A DNA stretch of 50,449 bases, from assembly GCA_902778285.1 (NCBI GenBank), contig CACYXC010000022.1:1-50449 (forward strand), read 5' to 3'. Positions 1 through 50,449 of this stretch are shown in pieces. Positions within the stretch are counted from its first letter, which is position 1. Every line of letters begins with the position of its first letter. Origin of the DNA: Oscillospiraceae bacterium. GTDB taxonomy: Bacteria > Bacillota > Clostridia > Oscillospirales > Oscillospiraceae. The notes beneath the pieces were generated by a model, which saw only the letters and a program-made list of their open reading frames with translations, had not been told where the DNA came from and searched no databases. Both the position numbers and the translations under genes were made by a program.

Positions 1-89
1 ATCGTCTTTGCGATGTGATCAACAACCTCTCCGCTGATATCGTTCGCAGCATCACCGGACGCAGCTGGATTTTGTCTTGTTTTAATTAG
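1..89 (+). CDS. Possible 3' end of an unidentified plus-strand gene (partial)
   Basis: One frame is open from the window edge to a TAG at 87-89 and would encode about 28 residues ending RSITGRSWILSCFN. The other two plus frames stop early. There is no start inside the window and I do not recognise the tail. It could be the end of a real gene that begins outside the window, or chance. The terminator-like hairpin at 153-191 lies downstream and would suit a gene ending here. Low confidence. Confidence 0.25.
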   Translation, partial: RLCDVINNLSADIVRSITGRSWILSCFN

Positions 90-152
90 GTTTTAGTATG
101 AAACAATATGGCATAATTGATTGATGAGACCGCGCTTTATTAAGAAGCAAAG

Positions 153-191
153 ATGCCCCCTGATGAAGATTTTTCAAACATCAGGGGGCAT
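153..191. terminator. Perfect 13-bp stem hairpin, probable bidirectional terminator
   Basis: ATGCCCCCTGATG at 153-165 pairs perfectly with CATCAGGGGGCAT at 179-191. On the plus strand it is followed by TCCTTTT. On the minus strand a looser T-rich run follows (CTTTGCTTCTT). It lies about 60 nt downstream of the stop of the minus-strand surface protein gene and downstream of the possible plus-strand ORF end, so it could serve both. Nothing else is seen between 192 and 251. Confidence 0.75.
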
Positions 192-251
192 TCCTTTTCA
201 CTATTAATGCTTGACGATTCCCAGTCAATGGGATACGTCTGCTGTATCAGA

Positions 252-3026
252 TCAGGTTGGGGCCTTGTCAGAGCGGCCGAACTGATCAAAGGTATAGTCT
301 ACGCCGCCGATTGTGAGCGTGGTGTTCATCGCGGCAGAACCATCGGCCTGGAAATAGTACCAGTTGGAACCAATCTGCTTCCAAACGCTTGACAGCATGG
401 CGCCGTCGCTCTGATTGAAGTAATAGCGCTTGTTGTCGATTTTTCTCGCTCCGGTAATCATCTGGCCGAGATTGGATTTATCGGTGCTCAGATAGAACCA
501 CTTGCTGCCGGAATAGAGCCAGCCGGTCTTCATGGAGCCGTCGCTGTTGAAGTAGTACCACTTGCTGTCGATCTGCTGCCAGCCGGTCAGCATGGCACCA
601 TCAGCTGCGCAGTAGTAACGCTTCTTGTCAACGGTGATCCAGCCGGTCCGCATGACACCGTCGGTGCCGAGGTAGTACCACTTGCCATCGACATACTGCC
701 AGCCCTTCTGCATGACGCCGTCGTTGTTGTAATAGTACCACTTGCCGCCGGACTTCTGCCAGCCGGTCTTCAGGGCGCCGCTGCTGCCGAAGTCATAGGT
801 CTTATCGCCGATCTTGACCTGGCCGGTCGCCATGATGCCCTTCGGCGCGGAATCGGGATAGAAGTAGTAGCGCTTGCCGTCGATGGTCTTCCAGCCGGTC
901 GTGGTGGAGCCGTCGGACTTCAGGTAGAACCACTTGTCGTTGGTCTTCAGCCAGCCGTCTTTCTGCATGACGCCATTGCTGTTGAGATAGTAGCTCTTGT
1001 TATCGACATAGATCCAGCCGGTCAGCTTGACGTTGTCCTTGAGGTAATACCAGTCGCCTTCCTCATAGACCCAGCCGGTGCGGGTCTTGCCCACCTGGTA
1101 GACGCCGTTTTTGTCGAACAGGCACCAGACGCCGTTGATCTTGACCCAGCCGGTCTGCATGATGCCGTCCTCATTGCAGTAGTAGGTGTTGCCGTTGAGG
1201 ATGACCCAGCCGGTCTGCATGGCGCCGTCGCTGCCCATGATGTATTTGTTGCCGCCGCTGGTGATGATGCCGGTCTGCATCACGCCCTTGCCATTGAAGT
1301 AATACCACTTGCCGTTGATCTGATTCCAGTAGGTGACGGGGTTGCCGCTGGTGTCGTAGTAGTACCACTTGCTGTCGATCTGCTCCCAGCCGTAGCGGTC
1401 CTTGTTGGGGTTGAGAACGCCGTTTGCGTCAAAGAAGTACCAGGTGCCGTCGATCTTTTCCCAGCCGGTGGCCATCGCGCCGGAGCTGGTCAGATAGAAG
1501 ACCTTGTCGTTGTCGCGCAGCCAGCCGGTCTGCATGGCGCCCTTCTCGTCAAAGAAGTACCACTTGTTCTTGACCTGATTCCAGCCGGTGACGAGCTTGC
1601 CGTTCTTGACATAGAACCAGACGCCGTCCTGGATCTGCCAGCCTTCCTTTTTCAGGTCGACCTTCTTCTCGGGGCCGGGCACCACGCTGGAATCCCACGC
1701 ACCGGTCTCGTCCAGGAAATACCAGGTGTCGCCGTCCTTGATCCAGCCGGTCTGCATGACGCCCTTGTCGTTCATATAGTACCACTTGCCGCCGGACTGG
1801 ACCCAGCCGGTCTGCATGGCGCCGGAGCCGTTGAAGTAGTACCAGTTGTCACCTTCCTTGTACCAGTAGGTGTTCATGACGCCGTTTGCGTCGAGATGAT
1901 AGGTCTTGCCGCCGACGGTGATCCACTGATTGACGACCAGACGGCCGTTGGCGTCGTAGTAATACCATTTGTCGCCGCTCTTGACCCAGCCGCGGTTGGT
2001 GGAGCCCTGGTCCTGCACGGTCCAGGTCAGCGTGCCGCCGTAGTCCTTCATGACGCTCTCGGTCCAGCTGCTGTCGCCGCCGGGGAAGTACGCGGCCGCC
2101 GTGACGAGCTTGAAGGCGGTATCACTGATCGTGGGGGCCTTGCCGCGGAAAATGACGGTGTTGAGCTTGCTGCATTCGGAGAAGGCCTTGGCCCCGATGC
2201 TCGTCACGAGCGCGGGGATGGTGACGCTGGTCAGGGAGATGCAGCGCTCAAAGCAGCTGGCGGGGATGGCGGTCAGGCTGGCAGAGAAGGTGACGCTCGC
2301 CAGCGCGGAGCAGTCGGAAAACGCCTTCTCACCGAGGCTCGTGACCGTGTCGGGCATGGTGATGCTGACCAGCTTGGTGCAGCCGGCGAAAGCGCTCGCG
2401 CCGATGCTGCCCAGCGTGCTCGGCAGGGAGACGGACGTCAGCTTGGTGCAGCCCTCAAAAGCGGAATCGCACAGGCTGGTGATGCTGCTGTTGACCGTCA
2501 CGGAGGTGATGATCTGCGCCACGTCGGACTCGCTCAGCCAGGGCGTAGAGGTGACCGCACCGCTGCCGTTGATGATGAGGTTGCCGGTGGTCAGGTGCAG
2601 CGTAGCAGTGGCATCCGCGCCGCAGTTCCAGCTCTTGGTGTCGGCGTCTGCCGCGTCGTCGTCCACGGACTCGGAATCGCCCTCGACCAGGAACGGGTCC
2701 TCAAATTCCTCGGGTTCCTCAGCGGGGGCTTCCTCGGTGGGCTCTACCGCGGGCTCCTCAATGGGAGCTTCCTCGGCGGGCTCTACCGCGGGCTCCTCAG
2801 CGGCGGCCTCCTCGGTGGGCTCTTCCGCAGGCTCCTCGATGGGAGCTTCTTCGGCGGGCTCCTCCGCGAGAGCTTCCTCAACGGGAGCTTCCTCGGCGAA
2901 AACTTCCTCCGCCGGAACCTCCTCCGGGAGGGCCTCCTCGCCGTCATCGGCGAAAGCAGTCACCGGGAGAAGAGAGAGGCACATGATCAGTGCCATCAGA
3001 AACGCTATAACTCGCTTGCTGTTCAA
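252..3026 (-). CDS. Secreted surface protein: acidic repeats, BspA-type LRRs, about 27 GW cell-wall-binding repeats
   Basis: The 924-aa protein starts with TTG behind AAGGAAG. Residues 1-27 form a signal peptide ending near AFADDG. Residues about 28-130 are a Glu/Ala/Pro tract of EEAPxEEP-like repeats. About 140-320 matches LRR_5 (BspA) repeats with the ITSLGEKAFSDCSALASV pattern. From about 340 to the end there are about 27 units of roughly 20 aa of the type GWxxxxGKWYYFNxxGxMQT, the choline/glucan-binding (cell wall-binding) repeat family. Such repeats attach proteins non-covalently to wall or teichoic-acid polymers, and BspA LRRs often mediate adhesion. No enzyme domain is visible, so an adhesive or structural role is inferred. 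It has its own consensus promoter and a downstream terminator, so it is monocistronic. The repeats make copy-number change by recombination likely. Confidence 0.88.
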   Translation of the reverse strand: MNSKRVIAFLMALIMCLSLLPVTAFADDGEEALPEEVPAEEVFAEEAPVEEALAEEPAEEAPIEEPAEEPTEEAAAEEPAVEPAEEAPIEEPAVEPTEEAPAEEPEEFEDPFLVEGDSESVDDDAADADTKSWNCGADATATLHLTTGNLIINGSGAVTSTPWLSESDVAQIITSVTVNSSITSLCDSAFEGCTKLTSVSLPSTLGSIGASAFAGCTKLVSITMPDTVTSLGEKAFSDCSALASVTFSASLTAIPASCFERCISLTSVTIPALVTSIGAKAFSECSKLNTVIFRGKAPTISDTAFKLVTAAAYFPGGDSSWTESVMKDYGGTLTWTVQDQGSTNRGWVKSGDKWYYYDANGRLVVNQWITVGGKTYHLDANGVMNTYWYKEGDNWYYFNGSGAMQTGWVQSGGKWYYMNDKGVMQTGWIKDGDTWYFLDETGAWDSSVVPGPEKKVDLKKEGWQIQDGVWFYVKNGKLVTGWNQVKNKWYFFDEKGAMQTGWLRDNDKVFYLTSSGAMATGWEKIDGTWYFFDANGVLNPNKDRYGWEQIDSKWYYYDTSGNPVTYWNQINGKWYYFNGKGVMQTGIITSGGNKYIMGSDGAMQTGWVILNGNTYYCNEDGIMQTGWVKINGVWCLFDKNGVYQVGKTRTGWVYEEGDWYYLKDNVKLTGWIYVDNKSYYLNSNGVMQKDGWLKTNDKWFYLKSDGSTTTGWKTIDGKRYYFYPDSAPKGIMATGQVKIGDKTYDFGSSGALKTGWQKSGGKWYYYNNDGVMQKGWQYVDGKWYYLGTDGVMRTGWITVDKKRYYCAADGAMLTGWQQIDSKWYYFNSDGSMKTGWLYSGSKWFYLSTDKSNLGQMITGARKIDNKRYYFNQSDGAMLSSVWKQIGSNWYYFQADGSAAMNTTLTIGGVDYTFDQFGRSDKAPT

Positions 3027-3207: not shown

Positions 3208-4707
3208 TCAGTTGTTCTCCGGCTTCATTGTCGGGAACAGCAGCACGTCGCGGATGGAGGGAGAATCGGTCAGCAGCATGACCAGGCGGTCGATGCCGTA
3301 GCCGATGCCGCCCGTGGGAGGCATGCCGATCTCGAGGGCGTTGAGGAAGTCCTCGTCCGTGTGGTTGGCCTCGGCGTCGCCGGCGGCGGCCAGCGCGTCC
3401 TGCGCGGCGAAGCGCGCGCGCTGGTCGATGGGGTCGTTGAGCTCGCTGTAGGCGTTGCACATCTCGCGGCCGTAGATGAAGAGCTCGAAGCGCTCGACCT
3501 TGGAGGGGTCGGAGGGCTTGCGCTTGGTCAGGGGGCTGATCTCCACAGGGTGGTCCATGATGAACACCGGCTGGATCAGCTGCTCCTCGCAGTAGGTCTC
3601 AAAGAAGAGGTTGATGATGTCGCCGCGCTTGTGACGCGCCTCGACCTCAATGCCGCGCTCCTTTGCAAGCGCTCTGGCCTCCTCCTCGGTGGCGACGGCG
3701 TCAAAGTCAACGCCCGCCCAGCGCTTGACCGCCTCGGTCATGGTCAGGCGCTCAAAGGGCTTGCCGAGGTCGATCTCGGTCCCCTGATAGCTGATCGTCG
3801 TCGTGCCGCAGACCGTCTTCGCCAGATGCCGGAAGAGATCCTCCGTCAGGTCCATCATGCCGTTATAGTCGGTGTAGGCCTGATAGAGCTCCATGAGCGT
3901 AAACTCAGGGTTGTGGCGGGTGTCGAGGCCCTCATTGCGGAAGACACGGCCGATCTCGTAGACCTTCTCGAGGCCCCCGACGATCAGGCGCTTGAGGTAC
4001 AGCTCCAGTGAGATGCGCAGGCGCACATCCTCGTCAAGCGCGTTGTAATGCGTCTCGAAGGGGCGGGCCGCCGCGCCGCCGGCGTTGGCGACGAGCATGG
4101 GCGTCTCGACCTCCATGAAGCCGCGCGCGTCGAGGAAGCGGCGGATCTCGCTGATGATCAGGGAGCGCTTGATAAAGGTATCGCGCACGTTGGGGTTGAC
4201 GATCAGGTCCACATAGCGCTGACGATAGCGCGCGTCCACGTCGGTCAGGCCGTGGAACTTCTCGGGCAGCGGCTTGAGCGACTTCGACAGCAGCGTGAGC
4301 GAATCGGCGTGGACCGTGGTCTCGCCGGTCTTGGTCTGAAACACGGTACCGGTGACGCCAATGATGTCGCCGATGTCCATCTTCTTGAAAAGGGCGTACT
4401 CGTCCGGGCCGATGCCGTCGCGCGCCACATAGATCTGCAGCAGGCCCTCGCGGTCCTGCAGCTTGCAGAAGGAGGCCTTGCCCATGACGCGCTTGACCAT
4501 CATGCGCCCGGCGACGGAGACTTCCTTTCCCTCCAGCTCGGCAAAATGCGCGAGCACCTCGGTGCTGTGGTGGCTGACTTCGTACTTTGTGATCTGGAAG
4601 GGGTCTCTCCCCTCCTGCTGCAGCGCGGCCAGCTTGTCCCGCCGTACCTGCAGGATCTCGCTCAGCTCCTGCTCGGGAGCGGCGCTCAGATTCGAATTGT
4701 CACTCAT
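3208..4707 (-). CDS. lysS: Lysyl-tRNA synthetase, class II
   Basis: The 499-aa protein has the normal length for bacterial LysRS. It charges tRNA-Lys with lysine in the cytoplasm. An N-terminal OB-fold anticodon-binding domain covers about residues 55-150. The class II core follows, with motif 2 at about 254-270 ([17 protein letters not shown]) and motif 3 at about 466-479 ([14 protein letters not shown]). The start has AGGAGAG 7 nt upstream. It is downstream of greA, with a GC-rich 11-bp hairpin in the 68-nt spacer and a terminator after its stop. No T-box leader is visible, so expression probably follows the greA promoter. Confidence 0.97.
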
Positions 4708-22361: not shown

Positions 22362-22669
22362 GTCTTTTTCTTTCTGTCCTTTACGAGCTCGATCTTCGGC
22401 TCCTTCTCGTTGCGTTTATACAGCACGAACTTGGTGCCGATCACCTGGACCTGTTCCGCCCTGCAGGCATCACACAGTGCGTCGCAGGCCTCCCGGGCGG
22501 TGAGCATGGAGTTTTCCAGCACGCGGCCCTTGACCAGTTCCCGCGCCTTCAGCGCGGCGTCCACGGAGGCGATCAGGTTTTCGGTGATGCCGCCCTTGCC
22601 CACCTGAATGATGGTGTCCTCCGCCGCGGCCAGACCGCGCAGCTGAGAACGCTGTTTGCTTGTAATCAT
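22358..22669 (-). CDS. yhbY: YhbY-type CRM-domain RNA-binding protein
   Basis: The 103-aa protein is a single CRS1-YhbY (CRM) domain with the GxxG-type loop GKGGITEN and the LKARELVKGRVLENS segment. It associates with pre-50S ribosomal particles in other bacteria. AAGGAA precedes the ATG. It opens the yhbY-nadD/yqeK-rsfS group. No promoter could be picked out within the repeat array upstream. Confidence 0.93.
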   Translation of the reverse strand: MITSKQRSQLRGLAAAEDTIIQVGKGGITENLIASVDAALKARELVKGRVLENSMLTAREACDALCDACRAEQVQVIGTKFVLYKRNEKEPKIELVKDRKKKT

Positions 22670-22682
22670 TTTATATTCCTTT

Positions 22683-23035
22683 CCTTATAGCCTTCCCCTC
22701 TGGGGAAGGGGGACCGCGGAGCGGTGGATGAGGTCCTTTCCTTATAGCCTTCCCCTCTGGGGAAGGGGGACCGCGGAGCGGTGGATGAGGTCCTTTCCTT
22801 ATAGCCTTCCCCTCTGGGGAAGGGGAACCGCGGAGCGGTGGATGAGGTCCTTTCCTTATAGCCTTCCCCGCGCACGGGGAAGGTGGCTGGCAGGAGGCCA
22901 GACGGATGAGGTCTCCTTCCGTTTTGGCTCCCCTGTGCAAGGGGAGTTCCCGCAAAGCGGTGGATGAGGTTCCTTTCCTTACAGACTCCCCTGCCAGGGG
23001 AGCTGGCGCGCAGCGCCTGAGGGGTCTGTTCGTTT
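22683..23035 (+). repeat. Tandem 57-bp GC-hairpin repeats between ftsY and yhbY
   Basis: Three near-identical 57-bp units start at 22683, 22740 and 22797, and a divergent fourth at 22854. Two further degenerate relatives follow at about 22915-22977 and 22985-23026. Each unit has a CCTTCCCC-type hairpin (CCTTCCCC TCT GGGGAAGG), then a CCGCGGAGCGG hairpin, then TGGATGAGGT. The relative at 22985-23026 matches the copy at 31151-31190 closely. Open frames running through the array on both strands are a by-product of the period being a multiple of three. No gene is supported in this 414-nt gap. Confidence 0.88.
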
Positions 23036-23083
23036 TTGCTCCCTGCAAAAATGAGCAAAAAGGAATGTGTCGAAACCGCCGTT

Positions 23084-23992
23084 TTATCTCTTGAACAGGG
23101 CCTGCACGAAGGTCTCCGCCTCAAAGGGGATCAGATCGTCGATGCCCTCGCCCACGCCCACGAATTTGACTGGAAGCTTGAGCTCGTTGGCGATGGCGAA
23201 GACGATGCCGCCCTTGGCGGTGCCGTCGAGCTTGGTGAGCACGATGCCGGTAAGGCCCGAGGTCTCCAGAAACTGCTTGGCCTGAATGAGGCCGTTCTGC
23301 CCGGTGGTCGCGTCGAGCACCATCAGGGTCTCCACATCCGCCTCCGGCAGCTCGCGGTCGATGATGCGGCGAATCTTCGCCAGCTCGTTCATCAGATTCT
23401 GCTTGTTGTGCAGACGGCCTGCCGTGTCGATGATGATCACGTCAGAGCCTCTCGCCCTGGCGGCGCAGATGCCGTCATAGACCACGGCGGCGGGGTCGCT
23501 CCCCTCTTCATGCCGTACCAGGTCGGCCCCGGCGCGCTCGGCCCAGATACCGAGCTGCTCGGCCGCCGCGGCGCGGAAGGTGTCGCCCGCGACGAGCAGG
23601 ACCTTCTTGCCCTGTTCTTTGAGCTGGTGGGCCAGCTTGCCGATGGTGGTCGTCTTGCCGACGCCGTTGACGCCGACCATCAGAATGACGGAGGGCTTCT
23701 TGTCCAGCTTGAGCGCGGTGTCGCCCACGTTCAGAAGCTTGGAGAGCACCTCGATCAGGCCCTCGCGCGCCTCGTTGCCCTTGCGGAAGCGCTTCTCCCA
23801 GGTGGCCTTGCGCATCAGATAGTCCACGCGCTGCGCCGTGGAGGCGCCCACGTCGGCCAGCACGAGAAGCTCCTCCAGTTCCTCGTAGAAGTCCTCGCTG
23901 TCAGGCTGGTAGCCCTGAAACAGCTCCTCCAGCTCGACCATATTGCTGCGGGTCTTGCTCAGCCCGCCGAAGATCTTGTCAAAAAAGCCCAA
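23084..23992 (-). CDS. ftsY: Signal recognition particle receptor FtsY
   Basis: The 302-aa protein is the NG core of FtsY without a long acidic A domain. The G domain has [10 protein letters not shown] (107-116), [11 protein letters not shown] and [10 protein letters not shown]. It is the membrane receptor that pairs with Ffh for cotranslational targeting. The start is TTG (MGFFDKIF) about 10 nt after GAGGGGG. It follows smc by 57 nt, the usual clostridial order. Confidence 0.96.
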
Positions 23993-36651: not shown

Positions 36652-37305
36652 TCACATCTGGTAATGGTGGGCGTCCTGCAGGACCATTTCCTTGACCTTC
36701 AGCAGGCGCACCTTGGTGGAGTTCTCGTTCTCCTCCAGCTTCATGGTGATGTACTTGATGTTCTTCTCCAGACCGGGGATCATCACGTACTCCAGGGCGT
36801 TTACGCGGCGGCGGGTCTTCTCGATCTCCTCCGCCAGCAGCTGCATGGTCTTCTCGACCTGCGCCAGCTCCAGCATGTCCTCAAACACGCGCGCCAGCTT
36901 GTCGAGCGCGTCGTCCAGCTCGCCTGAGGTCTGCGCAAAGCCGTAGGGGTAGATCTCCGACGGGTCGTTGTTTTTTGTCGTGAAGCTGTACAGCGGCACG
37001 TTCACGCTCATGATGTTCTTGTATTTCAGCCCCAGCTCCACGCTCTGCCGCGGATAGAGCAGCGCCTGCTCCAGCATCTCGGGAGACATGATGGCGCTGG
37101 CGACCTGCAGCGAGCCGAAGGCGGCGGTCAGACCGTCCTCCACGCGGATACGAAGCTGTTTGTTGCGCTTGACCACGTCTATGAACTGGCGCATCAGCTC
37201 GTCGCGCTTGTCCTTGAGCAGCTTGTGGCCGCGCCGGGCGGTCTTCAGGCGGCCCTTGAGCTGGTTGAGCACCATTCTGGTCGGGGTTATCGTCGTATTT
37301 GCCAA
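36652..37305 (-). CDS. atpD: V-type ATP synthase subunit D
   Basis: The 217-aa central-stalk protein starts at TTG, 7 nt after GGAGGTG. It has the family opening MANTTITPTRMVLNQLKGRLKTA and long N- and C-terminal helices that form the rotor coiled coil inside A3B3. Last gene of the V-ATPase operon, separated from atpB by an 87-nt spacer that holds a copy of the GC-hairpin repeat family. Confidence 0.95.
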   Translation of the reverse strand: MANTTITPTRMVLNQLKGRLKTARRGHKLLKDKRDELMRQFIDVVKRNKQLRIRVEDGLTAAFGSLQVASAIMSPEMLEQALLYPRQSVELGLKYKNIMSVNVPLYSFTTKNNDPSEIYPYGFAQTSGELDDALDKLARVFEDMLELAQVEKTMQLLAEEIEKTRRRVNALEYVMIPGLEKNIKYITMKLEENENSTKVRLLKVKEMVLQDAHHYQM

Positions 37306-37392: not shown

Positions 37393-38766
37393 TCAGTTCT
37401 TCGGCAGATACTTCTCGATAAACTCCGGCTTGATGCGTTTGAGCTCGCGGCGCGGGAGGATCGACAGCAGCTCCCAGCCGATGTCCAGCGTCTCTTCGAT
37501 GCTGCGGTTGGTGTTGTTGCCCTGGCTGACGTAGACCTTCTCAAACTCCTCGGCAAACTTCGCGAAGAGCTTGTCGTCCTCGCTCAGCGCGGCCTCGCCC
37601 AGGATGGTCATGAGCTCCTTGGCGTCCTTGCCGCGGGAGTAGGCGGCAAAGAGCTGGTTCATGGTGCCGGCGTGGTCCTCGCGGGTCTTGCCGACGCCGA
37701 TGCCTTTGTCCTTCAGACGGCTCAGGGAGGGCAGCACGTCCACGGGCGGGACGATGCCCTTGCGGTGCAGGTCGCGGCTGAGGATGATCTGGCCCTCGGT
37801 GATATAGCCGGTCAGGTCGGGGATCGGGTGGGTCTTGTCGTCCTCGGGCATGGTCAGGATGGGGATCATGGTGATCGAGCCCTTCTTGCCCTGGCGGCGG
37901 CCGGCGCGCTCGTATAGCGTGGCGAGGTCGGTGTACAGGTAGCCGGGATAACCGCGGCGGCCGGGAACTTCCTTCTTGGCCGCGGAGACCTCACGCAGGG
38001 CCTCGGCATAGTTGGTGATGTCGGTCAGGATGACCAGCACCTGCATGTCCTTCTCGAAGGCCAGGTACTCGGCGGCGGTCAGCGCCACGCGCGGCGTGGC
38101 GATACGCTCGACCGCGGGGTCGTTGGCGAGGTTGGAGAAGACCACGGTGCGGTCGATGGCGCCGGTGCGGCGGAAGTCGTTGATGAAGTACTCGGACTCC
38201 TCGAAGGTGATGCCGATGGCGGCAAAGACGACGGCGAAGGTCTCATTGTCGCCCAGCACGCGGGCCTGACGGGCGATCTGGGCCGCCAGCGCCGCATGCG
38301 GCAGGCCGGAGCCGGAGAAGATCGGCAGCTTCTGGCCGCGGACCAGGGTGTTCAGGCCGTCGATCGTGCTCACGCCGGTCTGGATGAACTCCGCCGGGTA
38401 GGCGCGGGCGGCGGGGTTCATGGGCAGGCCGTTGATGTCGTTATGGGCGTCGGCCAGGATGGCGGGGCCGCCGTCGATGGGCTGGCCCATGCCGTTGAAG
38501 ACGCGGCCGAGCATGTCCTCGGACACGGCCAGCTGCTGGGGATGGCCCAGGAAGCGGACCTTGCTTTCGGCGAGGTTGATGCCCTGTGCGGATTCGAAGA
38601 GCTGAACGACCGCGCGGTCGCCCTCGACCTCCAGCACCTTGCAGCGGCGGGTATCGCCGTTGGGCAGCTCGATCTCGCCCAGCTCGTCGTAGGTGACGCC
38701 CTCGACGTGCTCCACGATCATCAGAGGGCTCGCGATCTCTCTTATGGTCTTATACTCTTTGATCAT
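37393..38766 (-). CDS. atpB: V-type ATP synthase subunit B
   Basis: The 457-aa non-catalytic subunit of the A3B3 ring has the conserved regions [40 protein letters not shown] and [24 protein letters not shown] subunits naturally lack a P-loop and contribute the arginine finger. Length is normal. The ATG overlaps the atpA stop (ATGA). Confidence 0.96.
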
Positions 38767-40484
38767 TCGTCCTCACCTCCGGCAATGACTTCCTCGATCT
38801 CTTTCTTCATCTGCGCGGCAATGGCGTCATAGTCGGCCTTGAAGGAGGCGGCGTCTGCCATCTTGGCGCGGCCAAGACGCTCGCGCGAGTCGATGGCGAA
38901 GAGCGCGTTCATGTCAGCCCCCTTCGCGAGCGCGTCGCGGCAGAGCGTGTCGTAACGGAGCACCAGATCCATCAGCGCGAACTGCTTGGCGTAGGAGGAA
39001 TAGGCGTCCTCATCCACGAAGGCGTTCTGCTGCAGAAAGTCCTCGCGGATGCTCTTGGCTGTCTCCATGGTGAGACGGTCCGCGGGAGACAGGGCGTCCT
39101 GTCCGACCAGACGGACGATCTCCTGCAGCTCGCTCTCCTCCTGCAGGATGTGCATGGCCTTGGTCCGGTTCTGCATGTACGCCTCGCCGAACTGCTCGGT
39201 GTACCAGGGTGCGAGCGTGTCCAGATACAGGGAGTAGGAGGTTAGCCAGTTGATGGCCGGGAAGTGGCGGGCGTAGGCAAGGCTGGAGTCCAGCGCCCAG
39301 AAGACCTTGACGATACGCATCGTGGCCTGGGACACGGGCTCGGAAATATCGCCGCCCGGAGGCGACACGGCGCCGATGGCCGTGACGGAGCCGCGGCGTT
39401 CGTCGCTGCCGAGGCATTCGACCACGCCGGCGCGCTCATAGAACTGCGCCAGACGGGAGGCCAGATACGCGGGGTAGCCCTCTTCGCCGGGCATCTCTTC
39501 CAGACGGCCGGACATCTCACGCAGAGCCTCGGCCCAGCGGGAGGTGGAGTCGGCCAGGACGGCCACGTCGTAGCCCATGTCGCGGAAGTATTCGGCGATG
39601 GTGATGCCGGTGTAGATGGAGGCCTCGCGGGCCGCCACGGGCATGTCGGAGGTGTTGGCGATCAGCACGGTGCGCTTCATCAGCGGCTCGCCGTTTCTGG
39701 GGTCCTTCAGCTCGGGGAACTCCATCAGAACGTCGGTCATCTCGTTGCCGCGCTCGCCGCAGCCGATGTAGATGACGATGTCCACGTCGGACCACTTGGC
39801 CAGCTGGTGCTGGCCCTTGGCGATGGGGAACATCGTGTCGATGATGCGCTGGCCCGAGTTCATGGGACGGGCCGGCACATATTTTCTCACATAGGGTCTG
39901 GCGACGCGGACGGGCCAGCGCTGCATCATGGTGAGTTCATGCTCTTTGCCCTTCTCGTCGCGCACGACGGCGATCACGTCGGTGACCACATGCTCGCCGC
40001 TGTCCACGCTCACGACCTCGCCGCTGACGCCGCGGGGGACCATGATCTTGTGGAGGATGGCGCTGGTCTCCTGCACGGTGCCGAGCACGTCGCCCGCGAT
40101 GACCTTGTCGCCGGGCTTTGCCACGGGCACGAAATCCCATTTCTTTTCCCGGTTGAGCGCGGGCACGTCGGTGCCGCGGGTGATGCAGTCGCCCGTCAGG
40201 GCGCGCATCTCGGGCAGGGGGCGCTGGATGCCGTCGTAAATGTTGTCCAGCATGCCGGGTCCGAGCTCGACGGACAGAGGCATCCCGGTGGTGACGACCG
40301 CGGCGCCGGGGCCGAGGCCGGAGGTCTCCTCATAGACCTGGATGGAGGCGCTGTCGCCGGTCATATTCAGGATCTCGCCGATCAGGTGCTGAGAGCCTAC
40401 GCGCACAACGTCGGAGACGTTGGCGTCCGCCAGGCCCTCCGCCACGACAAGCGGACCGGATACTTTGGTAACTCTTCCGCTCAT
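38763..40484 (-). CDS. atpA: V-type ATP synthase catalytic subunit A lacking the P-loop
   Basis: The ATG at 40484 is chosen, with AAAGGAAG 8 nt upstream. The 573-aa catalytic subunit is collinear with family members (normally about 585-595 aa) except at one point. Between FPIAKG and QHQLAKWSD, where homologues carry about 16 residues including the Walker A GPFGAGKT, nothing is present; G224 is followed directly by Q225 (bases 39813/39812). The reading frame is kept, and the later motifs ([11 protein letters not shown], Walker B region [28 protein letters not shown]) are intact. Without a P-loop Lys and Thr it should not hydrolyse ATP. This is either a real loss or a sequence or assembly error. 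Confidence 0.95.
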
Positions 40485-40504
40485 AAGCAAAACTTCCTTT
40501 CGAT

Positions 40505-40825
40505 TTAGTCGCCCAGAATATTGGTGCCGACGGCGCGCTCGACGGCTGCTTTCAGCGCCGACTGGCCGAGGCCGATGCTGCCCTCGCGGCCGGGGATCAG
40601 AATGACGGCCGGGGTGGGGCTGTCCTTGAATTTGTCGATTTCCGCGCTCAGCTGCTGGGCCAGGCCCTCCTCGATGTAGATGATGGCATAGTCCTCGCTC
40701 TCGCGGGTGAGGCGGCGCAGCGCGTCCTTCGCCTCCTGGGCGTTGGCGGCGGGGCAGGTGTCCAGCCCCAGCGCCTTGAAGCCCATGACGGTCTCTCTGC
40801 CGCCGATTACTGCAATTTTAAGCAT
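40505..40825 (-). CDS. atpF: V-type ATP synthase subunit F
   Basis: The ATG at 40825 ([20 protein letters not shown]) is chosen; three extra in-frame codons upstream are unlikely. The 106-aa protein has the usual Rossmann-like N-terminal half and [12 protein letters not shown]. It binds the central stalk subunit D and modulates activity. It overlaps atpC by 8 nt and precedes atpA by 20 nt. Confidence 0.93.
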
Positions 40826-41807
40826 ACAGATCACGCAGCCTTTCCCGGATGACCTGTGGCGTGATGCCCGCGAGTCTCCCCGTCAGGATCATGCGCACCG
40901 CGGTGAGCTCGTTCTCCACGGCCGCCTGATAGGCGATCACCGGCTCCTCGCCGTAGCCGACCAGCTTGGCCTGCGCCAGATAGGCGTTGACCGCGTTGTC
41001 GCAGGCGAGCTCGAACTTGGTCAGCGGACCGCCCTTCACGGCCTCGGCGCCGAGCGCCGCGGCTTCGGAAAGACGGGTGCTCTCAAACAGGGCGGCGAGC
41101 CCTTCGGCGCCCGCGGCGATGAGCCTGCGCGGCTCGATGGAGCCGCCGGGTACCAGCGCCTCCTGCAGGTAGCCGCTGTCCTTGCCCATGCGAAGGGTGC
41201 GCACGGCCGAGCGCAGGTTGGTGCTGTCGGCCAGGATGGCAGCGTAGCCCCTGAGGAACTTGCTGTCGGCGGCGTCCGCGATCTCCTTCAGCTCGCCGAA
41301 ATACGCCTTGTCCAGGCTGAAATCCGCAAGCTGGGGGTTGGCCGTACGGGCGAGGATGCTTTTGGCTTCCGCCACCGCGGCGGCAAAGGCCTTCGGCAGC
41401 TCGCGGAAATCGTCCTCCCGGACGGCCTCCAGCAGCGCTTCGGGCTTCACCCGACCGGAGGGAGAGAGCAGCGCGCTCTCGTCCAGATTCTGGGCCTCCG
41501 CCTTCAAAATCACCTTGGCGTTGTGGTAGTCGTACTTGACGCGGAAAAAGTCCACCAGCGCCTTTTCTGGCACCATGGATTCCAGCTCTCTGCCGAGCGC
41601 CGCGCGGCGCTCAGCCAGAAGCTGTTCGATCTCTCCCGCCTTTTTCTGGGACATGTCCTCATAGCCGCAGTCGGTCAGGAGCTTGGCGCACTCCTCGAAG
41701 GAAGGCGCATCCAGCATGCGCTCGGCCTTCTCGCGCGAGAGCATGCCGGGCTCCCGGGCCCGCAGCATGGCGGAGAGGAAAAGATACGCTTCTTTCTTCT
41801 TTGCCAA
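40818..41807 (-). CDS. atpC: V-type ATP synthase subunit C
   Basis: The 329-aa, mostly helical protein connects the central stalk to the membrane rotor (subunit d in eukaryotes). It starts at TTG (MAKKKEAYLFLSAMLRARE), 9 nt after GGAGGG, and has the typical KYDYHNAKVILKA segment. It follows atpE by 27 nt. Confidence 0.92.
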   Translation of the reverse strand: MAKKKEAYLFLSAMLRAREPGMLSREKAERMLDAPSFEECAKLLTDCGYEDMSQKKAGEIEQLLAERRAALGRELESMVPEKALVDFFRVKYDYHNAKVILKAEAQNLDESALLSPSGRVKPEALLEAVREDDFRELPKAFAAAVAEAKSILARTANPQLADFSLDKAYFGELKEIADAADSKFLRGYAAILADSTNLRSAVRTLRMGKDSGYLQEALVPGGSIEPRRLIAAGAEGLAALFESTRLSEAAALGAEAVKGGPLTKFELACDNAVNAYLAQAKLVGYGEEPVIAYQAAVENELTAVRMILTGRLAGITPQVIRERLRDLYA

Positions 41808-41834: not shown

Positions 41835-42422
41835 TTATGCAAAGAGGATGCCTGCGATCTCGGCAGACAGATCTCCCCGCGCGAGGTCCACGAGGAGCTC
41901 GGCGGTGCAGTTGGCCTCGACGTTGCCGCGGCGCAGGATCAGACCGCCGGCGAAATCGCCCGTCTCTTCGGCGAGCGTCAGCTTTCCGCCGTCGAGCTTC
42001 GCGTTCGCGGCGGCGGCGACCTTTTCGCCCACGGCCTTCCGGTCCCGGGCATTGAGAAGGATCTCCTCATCCCCGGTGACGGAGGCTTTGGCGGCAAGGC
42101 CGGCGAGGAAAGCCACGTATTCCTCCTCGGGCAGCGCGCAGAGGGCCTCCAGCGCCTTGTCGAAGGCGAGAGAGACCATCTCCTGCTTGACGGCCAGCGT
42201 GCCCTTGCGCGCCTCCATCTGGTCGATGCGGACGCGGCTGTCCACCTCGTCCTGACAGGCCTTCACGCCGGCGCGGATCCTCTCGGAATAACGTTCCGCC
42301 GCCTGTCTGTCAAACTCGGCCTTGATCCCGGCGCACTGCTGCTCTGCCTGAGCGAGGATCGCGTCAGCCTGCGCCTTCGCGTCAGCCTGGATATGCGCGA
42401 TGATTTTATCAGTGCCTTTCAT
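41835..42422 (-). CDS. atpE: V-type ATP synthase subunit E
   Basis: The 195-aa peripheral stalk subunit has an N-terminal helix rich in Ala/Lys/Gln (MKGTDKIIAHIQADAKAQADAILAQAEQQ) and a globular C-terminal half. It pairs with the small coiled-coil G/H subunit encoded at the start of the operon. AAGGAG precedes the ATG. It follows atpK by 19 nt. Confidence 0.92.
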   Translation of the reverse strand: MKGTDKIIAHIQADAKAQADAILAQAEQQCAGIKAEFDRQAAERYSERIRAGVKACQDEVDSRVRIDQMEARKGTLAVKQEMVSLAFDKALEALCALPEEEYVAFLAGLAAKASVTGDEEILLNARDRKAVGEKVAAAANAKLDGGKLTLAEETGDFAGGLILRRGNVEANCTAELLVDLARGDLSAEIAGILFA

Positions 42423-42441: not shown

Positions 42442-42939
<498 letters not shown>

Positions 42940-43166: not shown

Positions 43167-45143
43167 TTATTCTTCCGGGTTAATGAATCTGGTGCGCACG
43201 CTCAGCGGGGCGAAGGGCCGGCCGCCGTCCTGATAGAACTTGCCGAAGAACTCCAGGCACTGCAGACGCAGGTCGTGCACGAAGCAGCCCAGCAGGTTCA
43301 GTCCGAAGTTCAGCGCGTGGCCGATCAGGAAGATGACGATGAAGATCGCGCCGGACAGCGGGGTCACGCCGTTGGCGGAGGGCATGGCGGCGATGGTGTT
43401 GAAGACCTGCGCCACGACGCCGCCGGCCAGCATCAGGGCCATGATACGCGAGTAGCTCAGGATATCGCCGAACCAGCCCGTGAGTGTATTATAGATGACG
43501 CCGAAGGCCGCCGTCAGCTTGCCGATGCCCTTGCTGTGGCGTCCCGCGCCGAAGAGCAGCATCGCCGCGCCGACGATCAGGATCGCGAGGCCGAGGTTGT
43601 GCAGCATCCGGGACCTGAGTATCCCCAGCATATCCAGCGCCAGCAGGATACCGCCGAGCAGGATGACCCACAGGGAGCCCTCCTCAAAAATACCGTCGGC
43701 CAGATTGCCGTTCTTTTTCTTCTCCAGGAAGGAGACGACCATGCCGGCGTTCAGATGGATCACGCCCAGCGCCATGGCGCCGTAGAGCACGAGCGTACTG
43801 TCGCGCACGGGGCTGAACAGCGCGGGCAGGCCCTTCCAGTCGGAGCCGAACATGCCCGCGATCACCTCGGGGGCGTTGCCGAAGAGGCCGCCGGTCAGCG
43901 CGCCGCATATGAATGTGGCGATACCGCCGTAGAGCAGCAGCTGGCAGAAGGACAGTGTCCCCCCGCGCGGCTTGATCTTCTTCATGGCAACCAGCGCCGC
44001 GACGATCATGATCAGGCCGTAGCCCATATCCGCCATCATCAGCCCGTAGAACAGGATGAAGAAGGGCGCCATCAGCGGGTTCGGGTCCACCGTGCCGTAG
44101 GCCGGCAGACTGTACATGTTGGTGACCATATTCAGGGCGTTCGTCACCTGATTGTTTTTCAGCTTGACGGGCACCTCCGGGTACTCGTCCGGCTCCGGAT
44201 CGCGGCACTCCCACGCGCAGTCGAAGCGCTTGAAGACCTGCTCCAGCTCCTGCTCCCGCTCGGCGGGCATCCAGCCCTCCAGGATCAGGGTGCTGTCCGT
44301 GCCGACGAGGCGCTCCTCAGCCTCCGCCATGGCGACGCGGGTGGAGAGCTTGTCGCTGGCGAGCTTCAGCTCGTCCCGGTGCCCGCTTTCGGCTTTGATC
44401 TGTTCGACGAGTTCCGCCTTCTGCGCGGCGAGAGCGCTCAGACTCTCCTCCGCGGCGGCGGCCGCCTCTCTCGGCGTTCCGCTCAGGCCCCCCAGGGCGG
44501 CGGCGGTGAAGCCGAAGCTCCGCAGGGCCTCCTGCGCGGCGGGCATCTGCTCCTTCATGCACAGCAGAGCCACATAACGCGCGCTTTTGTCCTCGCTGAC
44601 GGGGAAGAGCTCCGCCTCGTCGGCGGCGTCACGCAGCGCCTCCACGGCGGCGGAAAAGCTGACCTTGCCGGGGATCGCGCCGAGGACCAGCTCGGTGCGC
44701 TCGGTCCCGCCGCACTCGAGCGGCAGATCCAGGCTCATCCAGGGCTGCAGCGATTCGAGAACCGTCCGCAGGCGGCTCTCCTCCGCGCCGATACGGCGGA
44801 CCTGATCGTGCAGTTCCGTGATCTTCTCCGCGAGGGCGAGCGCATCGTCTATGCCGTCGTCCTCCAGGAAGGTCTCCGCTGCCAGCTCGGGCTTTGCCGA
44901 GAGCAGCCTGCTTTTGACCGGCGCGTACTGGCCCAGCAGCTCCAGGGCATGGTCAAGCGACGCCAGCCGGGTGCGCGCGGCCATGACGCCGCTGCTCTCC
45001 GGGCGGAGGCTTTCGGTCTCAGGCAGCTCCTCCCCGGCCTCGGAGATCTCCACGCAGCCCAGTCGGGTCAGCTCGCGCAGCAGCTCCTCCTTGCGGGAAC
45101 GAACGGCGATCAGCCGAAGCCGTTTCATTCGTAAAATGGCCAT
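43167..45143 (-). CDS. atpI: V-type ATP synthase subunit I (membrane stator)
   Basis: The 658-aa protein has a cytoplasmic N-terminal half (about 1-325) with coiled coils and a C-terminal membrane half with seven or eight TM helices. The essential Arg region GCFVHDLRLQCLEFFGKFYQDGGRPF near the end is intact. It forms the ion half-channels against the K ring. Its ATG is 1 nt after the G/H stop, so translation is probably coupled. Confidence 0.94.
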   Translation of the reverse strand: MAILRMKRLRLIAVRSRKEELLRELTRLGCVEISEAGEELPETESLRPESSGVMAARTRLASLDHALELLGQYAPVKSRLLSAKPELAAETFLEDDGIDDALALAEKITELHDQVRRIGAEESRLRTVLESLQPWMSLDLPLECGGTERTELVLGAIPGKVSFSAAVEALRDAADEAELFPVSEDKSARYVALLCMKEQMPAAQEALRSFGFTAAALGGLSGTPREAAAAAEESLSALAAQKAELVEQIKAESGHRDELKLASDKLSTRVAMAEAEERLVGTDSTLILEGWMPAEREQELEQVFKRFDCAWECRDPEPDEYPEVPVKLKNNQVTNALNMVTNMYSLPAYGTVDPNPLMAPFFILFYGLMMADMGYGLIMIVAALVAMKKIKPRGGTLSFCQLLLYGGIATFICGALTGGLFGNAPEVIAGMFGSDWKGLPALFSPVRDSTLVLYGAMALGVIHLNAGMVVSFLEKKKNGNLADGIFEEGSLWVILLGGILLALDMLGILRSRMLHNLGLAILIVGAAMLLFGAGRHSKGIGKLTAAFGVIYNTLTGWFGDILSYSRIMALMLAGGVVAQVFNTIAAMPSANGVTPLSGAIFIVIFLIGHALNFGLNLLGCFVHDLRLQCLEFFGKFYQDGGRPFAPLSVRTRFINPEE

Positions 45144-45144
45144 G

Positions 45145-45459
45145 TCAGTTGCTCACTATCCTTTCCACGATGAGCGCCGCGGCCTTGCCGAGATTCTGCC
45201 CGGCCTGCTCCCGGAGCGCCGTTTTCCGGCTCTCCAGCGCCGCCGCCTGCTTCTCCGCCTCGCTTCGGTACTTCTCCTCCGCTTTCCGGCGCAGCTCGCG
45301 CAGCTCCGCATCCGCCTTGGCGCCGGCCGCTTCCACCGCGGCCTGACCGGTCGTCCTCGCCTCGGCCAGCATCTGACGGGCCTTGGCCTCAGCCGCCTGT
45401 ACGGCCGCCTTCGCCTCGCTCTCGGCGGCGGTGACGTTCGCAATTGCCTCCCATGACAT
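45145..45459 (-). CDS. V-type ATP synthase subunit G/H-like peripheral stalk protein
   Basis: The ATG at 45459 (MSWEAIANVTAAESEAKAAV) is chosen, with GAGGGGG about 7 nt upstream. The 104-aa all-helical, Ala/Glu/Arg-rich coiled-coil protein has the heptad pattern of the NtpF/AhaH family and pairs with subunit E in the peripheral stalk. First gene of the V-ATPase operon. Confidence 0.88.
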   Translation of the reverse strand: MSWEAIANVTAAESEAKAAVQAAEAKARQMLAEARTTGQAAVEAAGAKADAELRELRRKAEEKYRSEAEKQAAALESRKTALREQAGQNLGKAAALIVERIVSN

Positions 45460-45545
45460 GGGCACACCCCCTCTTCTCTCAGATTCCATAATATTGCGTT
45501 CGACTTTGCCTGTTCACGCAGTAACTTGTGGTATTCGACTCTATA

Positions 45546-45779: not shown

Positions 45780-50449
<4,670 letters not shown>

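Follow-up and report, generated by a model that had tools for sequence, protein, structure and literature searches.

Can the V-type ATPase of a living member of the Oscillospiraceae do without the P-loop of its catalytic subunit, or is the P-loop missing only from the sequence record? The question is raised by the window analyzed here, the whole stretch of 50,449 nucleotides that forms contig C22 of the draft genome G000 (76 contigs, 2.43 Mb, 89% complete, 2.6% contaminated). If the absence is real, it would be remarkable, as a rotary enzyme that is intact in every other respect would have lost function together with its catalytic P-loop. No V-type A subunit without a P-loop appeared among the listings and abstract beginnings returned by searches of the literature, which is no proof of absence in print.

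The Recorded A Subunit

The gene for the V/A-type ATPase catalytic A subunit lies on the minus strand at 38763..40490 and encodes 575 residues, as identified by its open reading frame (ORF) and by Pfam matches. The ORF is open on both sides of a join at 39812..39813 (minus strand), where alignment to relatives places 48 nt (16 codons) that are absent from the window; the residues are missing in frame and the whole P-loop is gone with them. The initial annotation had described exactly this loss from the single sequence, and had expected about 16 residues with the P-loop at the same place in homologs. Both statements hold: 108 of 109 loci in relatives (L005–L113) carry 16 extra residues at the join, including GPFG(S/A)GKT. 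The 109th locus, L110, was missed by the search pattern and is unscored, and it should be noted that the loci are not fully independent, as some represent one contig under two names. Aligning the A gene of close relatives, a check that had been proposed along with these claims, gave a single 48-base gap at the join against all 17 genus relatives at the DNA level, and the gap falls between codons. When 102 genus genomes were searched with a 26-mer across the junction, allowing up to three mismatches, the window's genome was the only one to contain it.

Outside the gap, the protein shares its domains, length and motifs with V/A-type A subunits such as Enterococcus hirae NtpA (3VR2) and the Pyrococcus A subunit (1VDZ; phmmer E values of 5e-206 to 3vr2_A and 1e-215 to 1vdz_A). 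It differs from them in lacking exactly the 16 P-loop residues, and the alignment to 1vdz_A shows a 16-residue gap precisely over the P-loop. Four Pfam domains score above their cut-offs (ATP-synt_ab_N, ATP-synt_ab_Xtn, ATP-synt_ab, and ATP-synt_VA_C), corresponding to the beta-barrel, the A-specific insertion (barrel-sandwich), the nucleotide-binding domain and the C-terminal domain; the ATP-synt_ab match begins at profile position 15 of 213. A conserved 12-residue segment downstream of the P-loop, invariant in a 17-sequence alignment, is kept. The Walker A motif GPFGxGKT is absent from the A subunit as recorded in the window, and in our reading it is missing from the sequence record only.

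The V-Type Operon and the ATPase Complement of the Genome

The A subunit is encoded beside the B, D, F, C, E, K, and I subunits, all on the minus strand. Best-hit comparison and Pfam indicate intact genes for the D (36652..37305), F (40505..40834), C (AC39; 40818..41807), E (41835..42422), K (ring; 42442..42927), and I (43167..45143) subunits, and the B subunit (37393..38766) is likewise intact, being 97.8% identical to those of the relatives G092 and G033 with no gaps and matching its Pfam family. A small stalk subunit (45145..45489, minus strand), G/H-like by position only, is conserved in relatives; it is the only one of the nine operon proteins to have no Pfam match. The impression given at the outset that the eight other genes of the operon are intact is borne out by insertions and deletions of no more than five residues against their best hits (up to six per gene).

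The K subunit is identical to that of G033 over 161 residues and only 80% identical to that of G092, with a DNA identity to G033 in the ordinary range of 93–94%. It also has four residues near positions 79–82 that are absent in four of its best six hits.

The G000 draft holds one V-type A subunit, one V-type B subunit and one F-type alpha/beta pair, and the P-loops of the F-type pair are intact; an F-type ATPase had been named in the initial annotation as something to look for. One way to rescue the complex would be a second A subunit, encoded elsewhere in the genome, that provides the P-loop. The draft is about 89% complete and such a copy could sit in the missing part, yet no second V-type A subunit was recovered when the draft was searched with the A protein, its Pfam family and a 55-residue P-loop segment. 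These searches returned this A subunit, the B subunit and the F-type pair, and otherwise weak candidates: one Pfam hit below the cut-off on contig C8 and several hits with E values of 0.19–0.5. We consider a supply from elsewhere extremely improbable.

Across the genus, a V-type A match (E ≤ 1e-60) is found in 95 of 102 genomes and in all 34 of those of good quality. Where a genome has two or three matches, they are mostly fragments of a single split gene. A distant second copy of full length (62%) is present in G021, and G081 has two additional N-terminal pieces.

Selection and Structure Models

Pairwise dN/dS values for the A gene of the window are 0.110 (with G092), 0.073 (G033), 0.087 (G104), 0.086 (G114), and 0.118 (G012), and those between intact siblings, used as a control, are 0.098 (G092–G033) and 0.082 (G092–G104). 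These values show a gene under ordinary purifying selection on both sides of the gap, with no sign of decay. AlphaFold2 models of the window protein and of the intact A subunit of G033 have mean pLDDT values of 71.6 and 73.5, and both are weak in the P-loop region. In the intact model, the lost block is predicted to form a strand (226–230) and the start of a helix (235–246), both of which are missing from the window model; pLDDT is 29 at the join in the window model and 40–48 over the block in the intact control. This structural evidence counts for little, because both models are weak and the intact control is poor at the block too.

These comparisons bear on the suggestion that the A subunit has been repurposed, in which case the complex would have no catalytic ATP turnover and might offer a passive or regulated ion path. 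The intact appearance of the eight other operon genes and the ordinary selection on the A gene are compatible with such a role. However, the junction is absent from the other 101 genus genomes, so that no lineage is seen keeping a repurposed function; selection on the A gene of the window resembles what is seen among intact siblings; and the strand and helix start predicted to be lost would also speak against it, with little weight. Repurposing therefore seems to us barely credible.

A Second Gap in rpoC on the Same Contig

A comparison of the neighboring genes of the window with G033 revealed a further gap, about 7.9 kb from the P-loop join, of which the initial annotation makes no mention. 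The gene rpoC (45780..49448, minus strand), encoding the beta' subunit of RNA polymerase with 1222 residues, lacks a conserved block of 25 residues in comparison with siblings. The join, at which the relatives' 75 nt (25 codons) are absent, lies at 47666..47667 (minus strand; its placement is ambiguous by 1 nt), and the gap is clean and in frame. The lost block includes TTVGRIIFNEPIP, which is nearly unchanged among the siblings listed. The block is present in 21 of 22 aligned stretches from sibling genomes of the genus (20 loci together with G092 and G033, the latter being the reference and counted among the 21), and the 22nd, from G002, begins after the block. No second full-length rpoC was found in G000, in which a single match was obtained at E ≤ 1e-200.

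RpoC is essential. A loss of 75 nt from its gene in a living cell is therefore hard to accept, and one shared cause at the level of the record is a simpler explanation for the gaps in both the A gene and rpoC.

The main alternative is a real and very recent deletion in one strain, by which the V-type ATPase would be dead, with the F-type enzyme carrying on and the operon so far undecayed. An in-frame gap in a gene open on both sides, an F-type alpha/beta pair with intact P-loops, an A gene in which decay has not begun, as expected if the event were recent, and a contig that does not resemble a two-species chimera all agree with it. It requires, however, a second and unrelated in-frame loss in an essential gene of which the draft has no other copy at the above threshold, and this in a genus in which every genome of good quality keeps the V-type A subunit. 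Such a deletion is unlikely, and two further observations given below, on sibling drafts and on the joins, also tell against it.

The rpoC gene of G092 keeps the block up to residue 617 and then has an in-frame gap of its own, of 24 residues, at 618–641. This gap adjoins that of the window and differs from it; it is seen in locus L227 (G092:C37:20001-40000, bases 1–2378, minus strand). Were all of these gaps real, conserved blocks would have been lost in frame from both the A subunit and RpoC of this lineage, and the neighboring RpoC block from its sister G092. Some process would then have to remove codon-exact pieces from the most conserved genes, and the gapped A and RpoC products would still have to be used, or be supplied in another way. 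We hold this to be very improbable.

Comparable Damage in Sibling Drafts

Clean joins of the same type occur in the A genes of several sibling drafts. In that of G111 (L150), an in-frame gap of 144 nt covers the P-loop and one of 47 nt, out of frame, follows downstream; that of G107 (L151) lacks 69 nt in frame and that of G101 (L156) lacks 20 nt, whereas insertions are seen in G031 (L154; 34 nt directly after the P-loop) and G106 (L155; 8 nt). Two rpoC genes are affected as well, with 72 nt missing in frame from that of G092 and 76 nt missing out of frame, near position 4554, from that of G023 (L189). Because a break of the reading frame in rpoC would be expected to kill the cell, the event in G023 is almost certainly an error. 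Counting both gaps of the window, ten events were recorded in the A gene and rpoC, five of which keep the frame and five of which break it; that half of them break the frame counts against a true deletion confined to one strain. The rpoC gene of G013 (L180) also has an insertion of 33 residues at reference position 547, in a stretch of variable length, and this was left out of the count.

The pieces of the G111 A gene are 82%, 97%, and 77% identical to the window protein, which suggests a mixture. By a hand count from the result tables, which omits hits with merely slightly short ends, the A gene is split or misjoined in 22 sibling genomes. The break lies in or overlaps residues 216–383 of 589 in 18 of these 22 (binomial probability 3e-7, for a range picked post hoc). 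In G099, the A gene is found on two contigs, the ends of which overlap at the start of the block missing from the window.

The Joins and Their Surroundings

The reading frame is kept by both gaps of the window and by the rpoC gap of G092, and all three allow a placement between codons. Going by the DNA of relatives, neither join of the window has an overlap or direct repeat beyond 1 nt, and slippage between direct repeats was rejected as an origin for this reason. A hairpin at the A join was likewise rejected: the corresponding stretch of the G033 A gene folds no better than shuffled sequences. Joins that offer slippage no direct repeats and DNA that folds no better than shuffles also count against a deletion in the living strain.

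A chimera of two species was considered as well; when the DNA is compared with that of siblings, the identity of the closest relative does not clearly change at either join, and such a chimera is therefore unsupported. The sharing of exact 31-mers between species is moderately elevated at the P-loop, where it is seen in 19.7% of 861 pairs compared with a mean of 12.5% for the gene, and 406 of 1720 A-gene windows score as high. At the rpoC site, it is not elevated (5.0 vs. 7.1), with 2131 of 3667 windows scoring as high.

To see how far such losses extend, 441 kb of the 2.43 Mb of G000 were compared with 1.18 Mb of G092 and 260 kb of G033. At an identity of at least 80%, the scan covered 110 ORFs against G092 and 23 against G033, leaving out rows in which the relative reads more than one stop; at no less than 70%, it covered 149 and 31 ORFs, respectively (158 distinct), dropping rows with any stop in the relative and including some antisense ORFs, with 34 (G092) and 11 (G033) rows lying inside the window. 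Four distinct losses of at least eight residues were found in G000 by the latter scan: the P-loop, the rpoC block and two inside low-complexity linkers. The P-loop loss showed up twice, with G092 in an antisense ORF and with G033 in the A gene itself. Losses of this size in the relatives numbered none in the scan at 70% and one, of 10 residues, in that at 80%. It should be noted that both scans missed the rpoC gap of G092, as it nearly cancels against that of the window; it is visible with G033 as the reference. With the two linker losses as the only others of this size among the 158 ORFs, damage is not spread over the part compared, and in the part seen it appears to be local to rpoC and the A gene.

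Origin of the Gap

Taken together, the evidence makes it highly probable that the P-loop is missing through a fault in the sequence record; the likeliest kind is a local misassembly in a draft built from mixed DNA. The nearest named relatives of the window are drafts of uncultured Clostridia and Oscillospiraceae, several of them from gut or rumen to judge by their titles, and from these relatives and the form of the draft we infer that G000 is derived from a metagenome. Two flanking pieces of the A gene of one species would have been joined with 48 nt dropped, and the error would have arisen during assembly or scaffolding, and not in the cell. In the living organism, the V-type A subunit is most probably ordinary and complete.

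This reading rests foremost on the clean in-frame gap in an essential gene on the same contig and on the comparable damage in sibling drafts. It is supported by the restriction of the A junction to 1 of 102 genus genomes, by the presence of V-type A in all 34 genomes of good quality, by the otherwise ordinary purifying selection on the gene and by the fragmentation of the draft into 76 contigs. Counting against it are the frame-keeping nature of the window's gaps, their overlap-free joins, the lack of an excess of shared k-mers at rpoC, the lack of a two-species mosaic, and the lack of a wider spread of losses in the part of G000 compared. Of the three outcomes put forward in the initial annotation (a dead complex, a repurposed one, or a 48-nt error), the error is the best supported, by the rpoC gap and the sibling damage, and repurposing has found no positive evidence in its favor.

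Draft genomes assembled from mixed DNA are described as containing local assembly errors that yield wrong protein-coding genes (PMC7111523). The present case resembles those errors in its wrong joins inside protein-coding genes of drafts, and in the contig ends and misjoins that affect the same gene, here that of the A subunit, in siblings. As a local assembly error would lead one to expect, the junction is absent from related genomes, being found only in the window's own, and clean joins occur elsewhere, including in an essential gene (rpoC of the window, G092, and G023) and in the sibling A genes of G111, G107, G101, G031, and G106. The case differs from PMC7111523 in that the passages of that article considered here describe no in-frame losses in V-ATPase genes or rpoC, and in that the losses reported here are known from assembled sequence.

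For work on this genus, the result is a caution: highly conserved genes in its drafts show clean gaps, some of them in frame, and the genes affected still look like open ORFs, so that a gap can be taken for a real loss. A quick test is to inspect an essential gene nearby for a comparable gap.

Other Features of the Window

A putative secreted protein of 924 residues is encoded at 252–3026 (minus strand). It has leucine-rich-like repeats, and, also by the look of its sequence, from which it is named, many tryptophan/tyrosine-rich repeats of the cell-wall-binding type. At about 22666–23124, in a stretch that looks intergenic, the window has a short tandem repeat that reads FPRGEGYKERTSSTAP in one frame.
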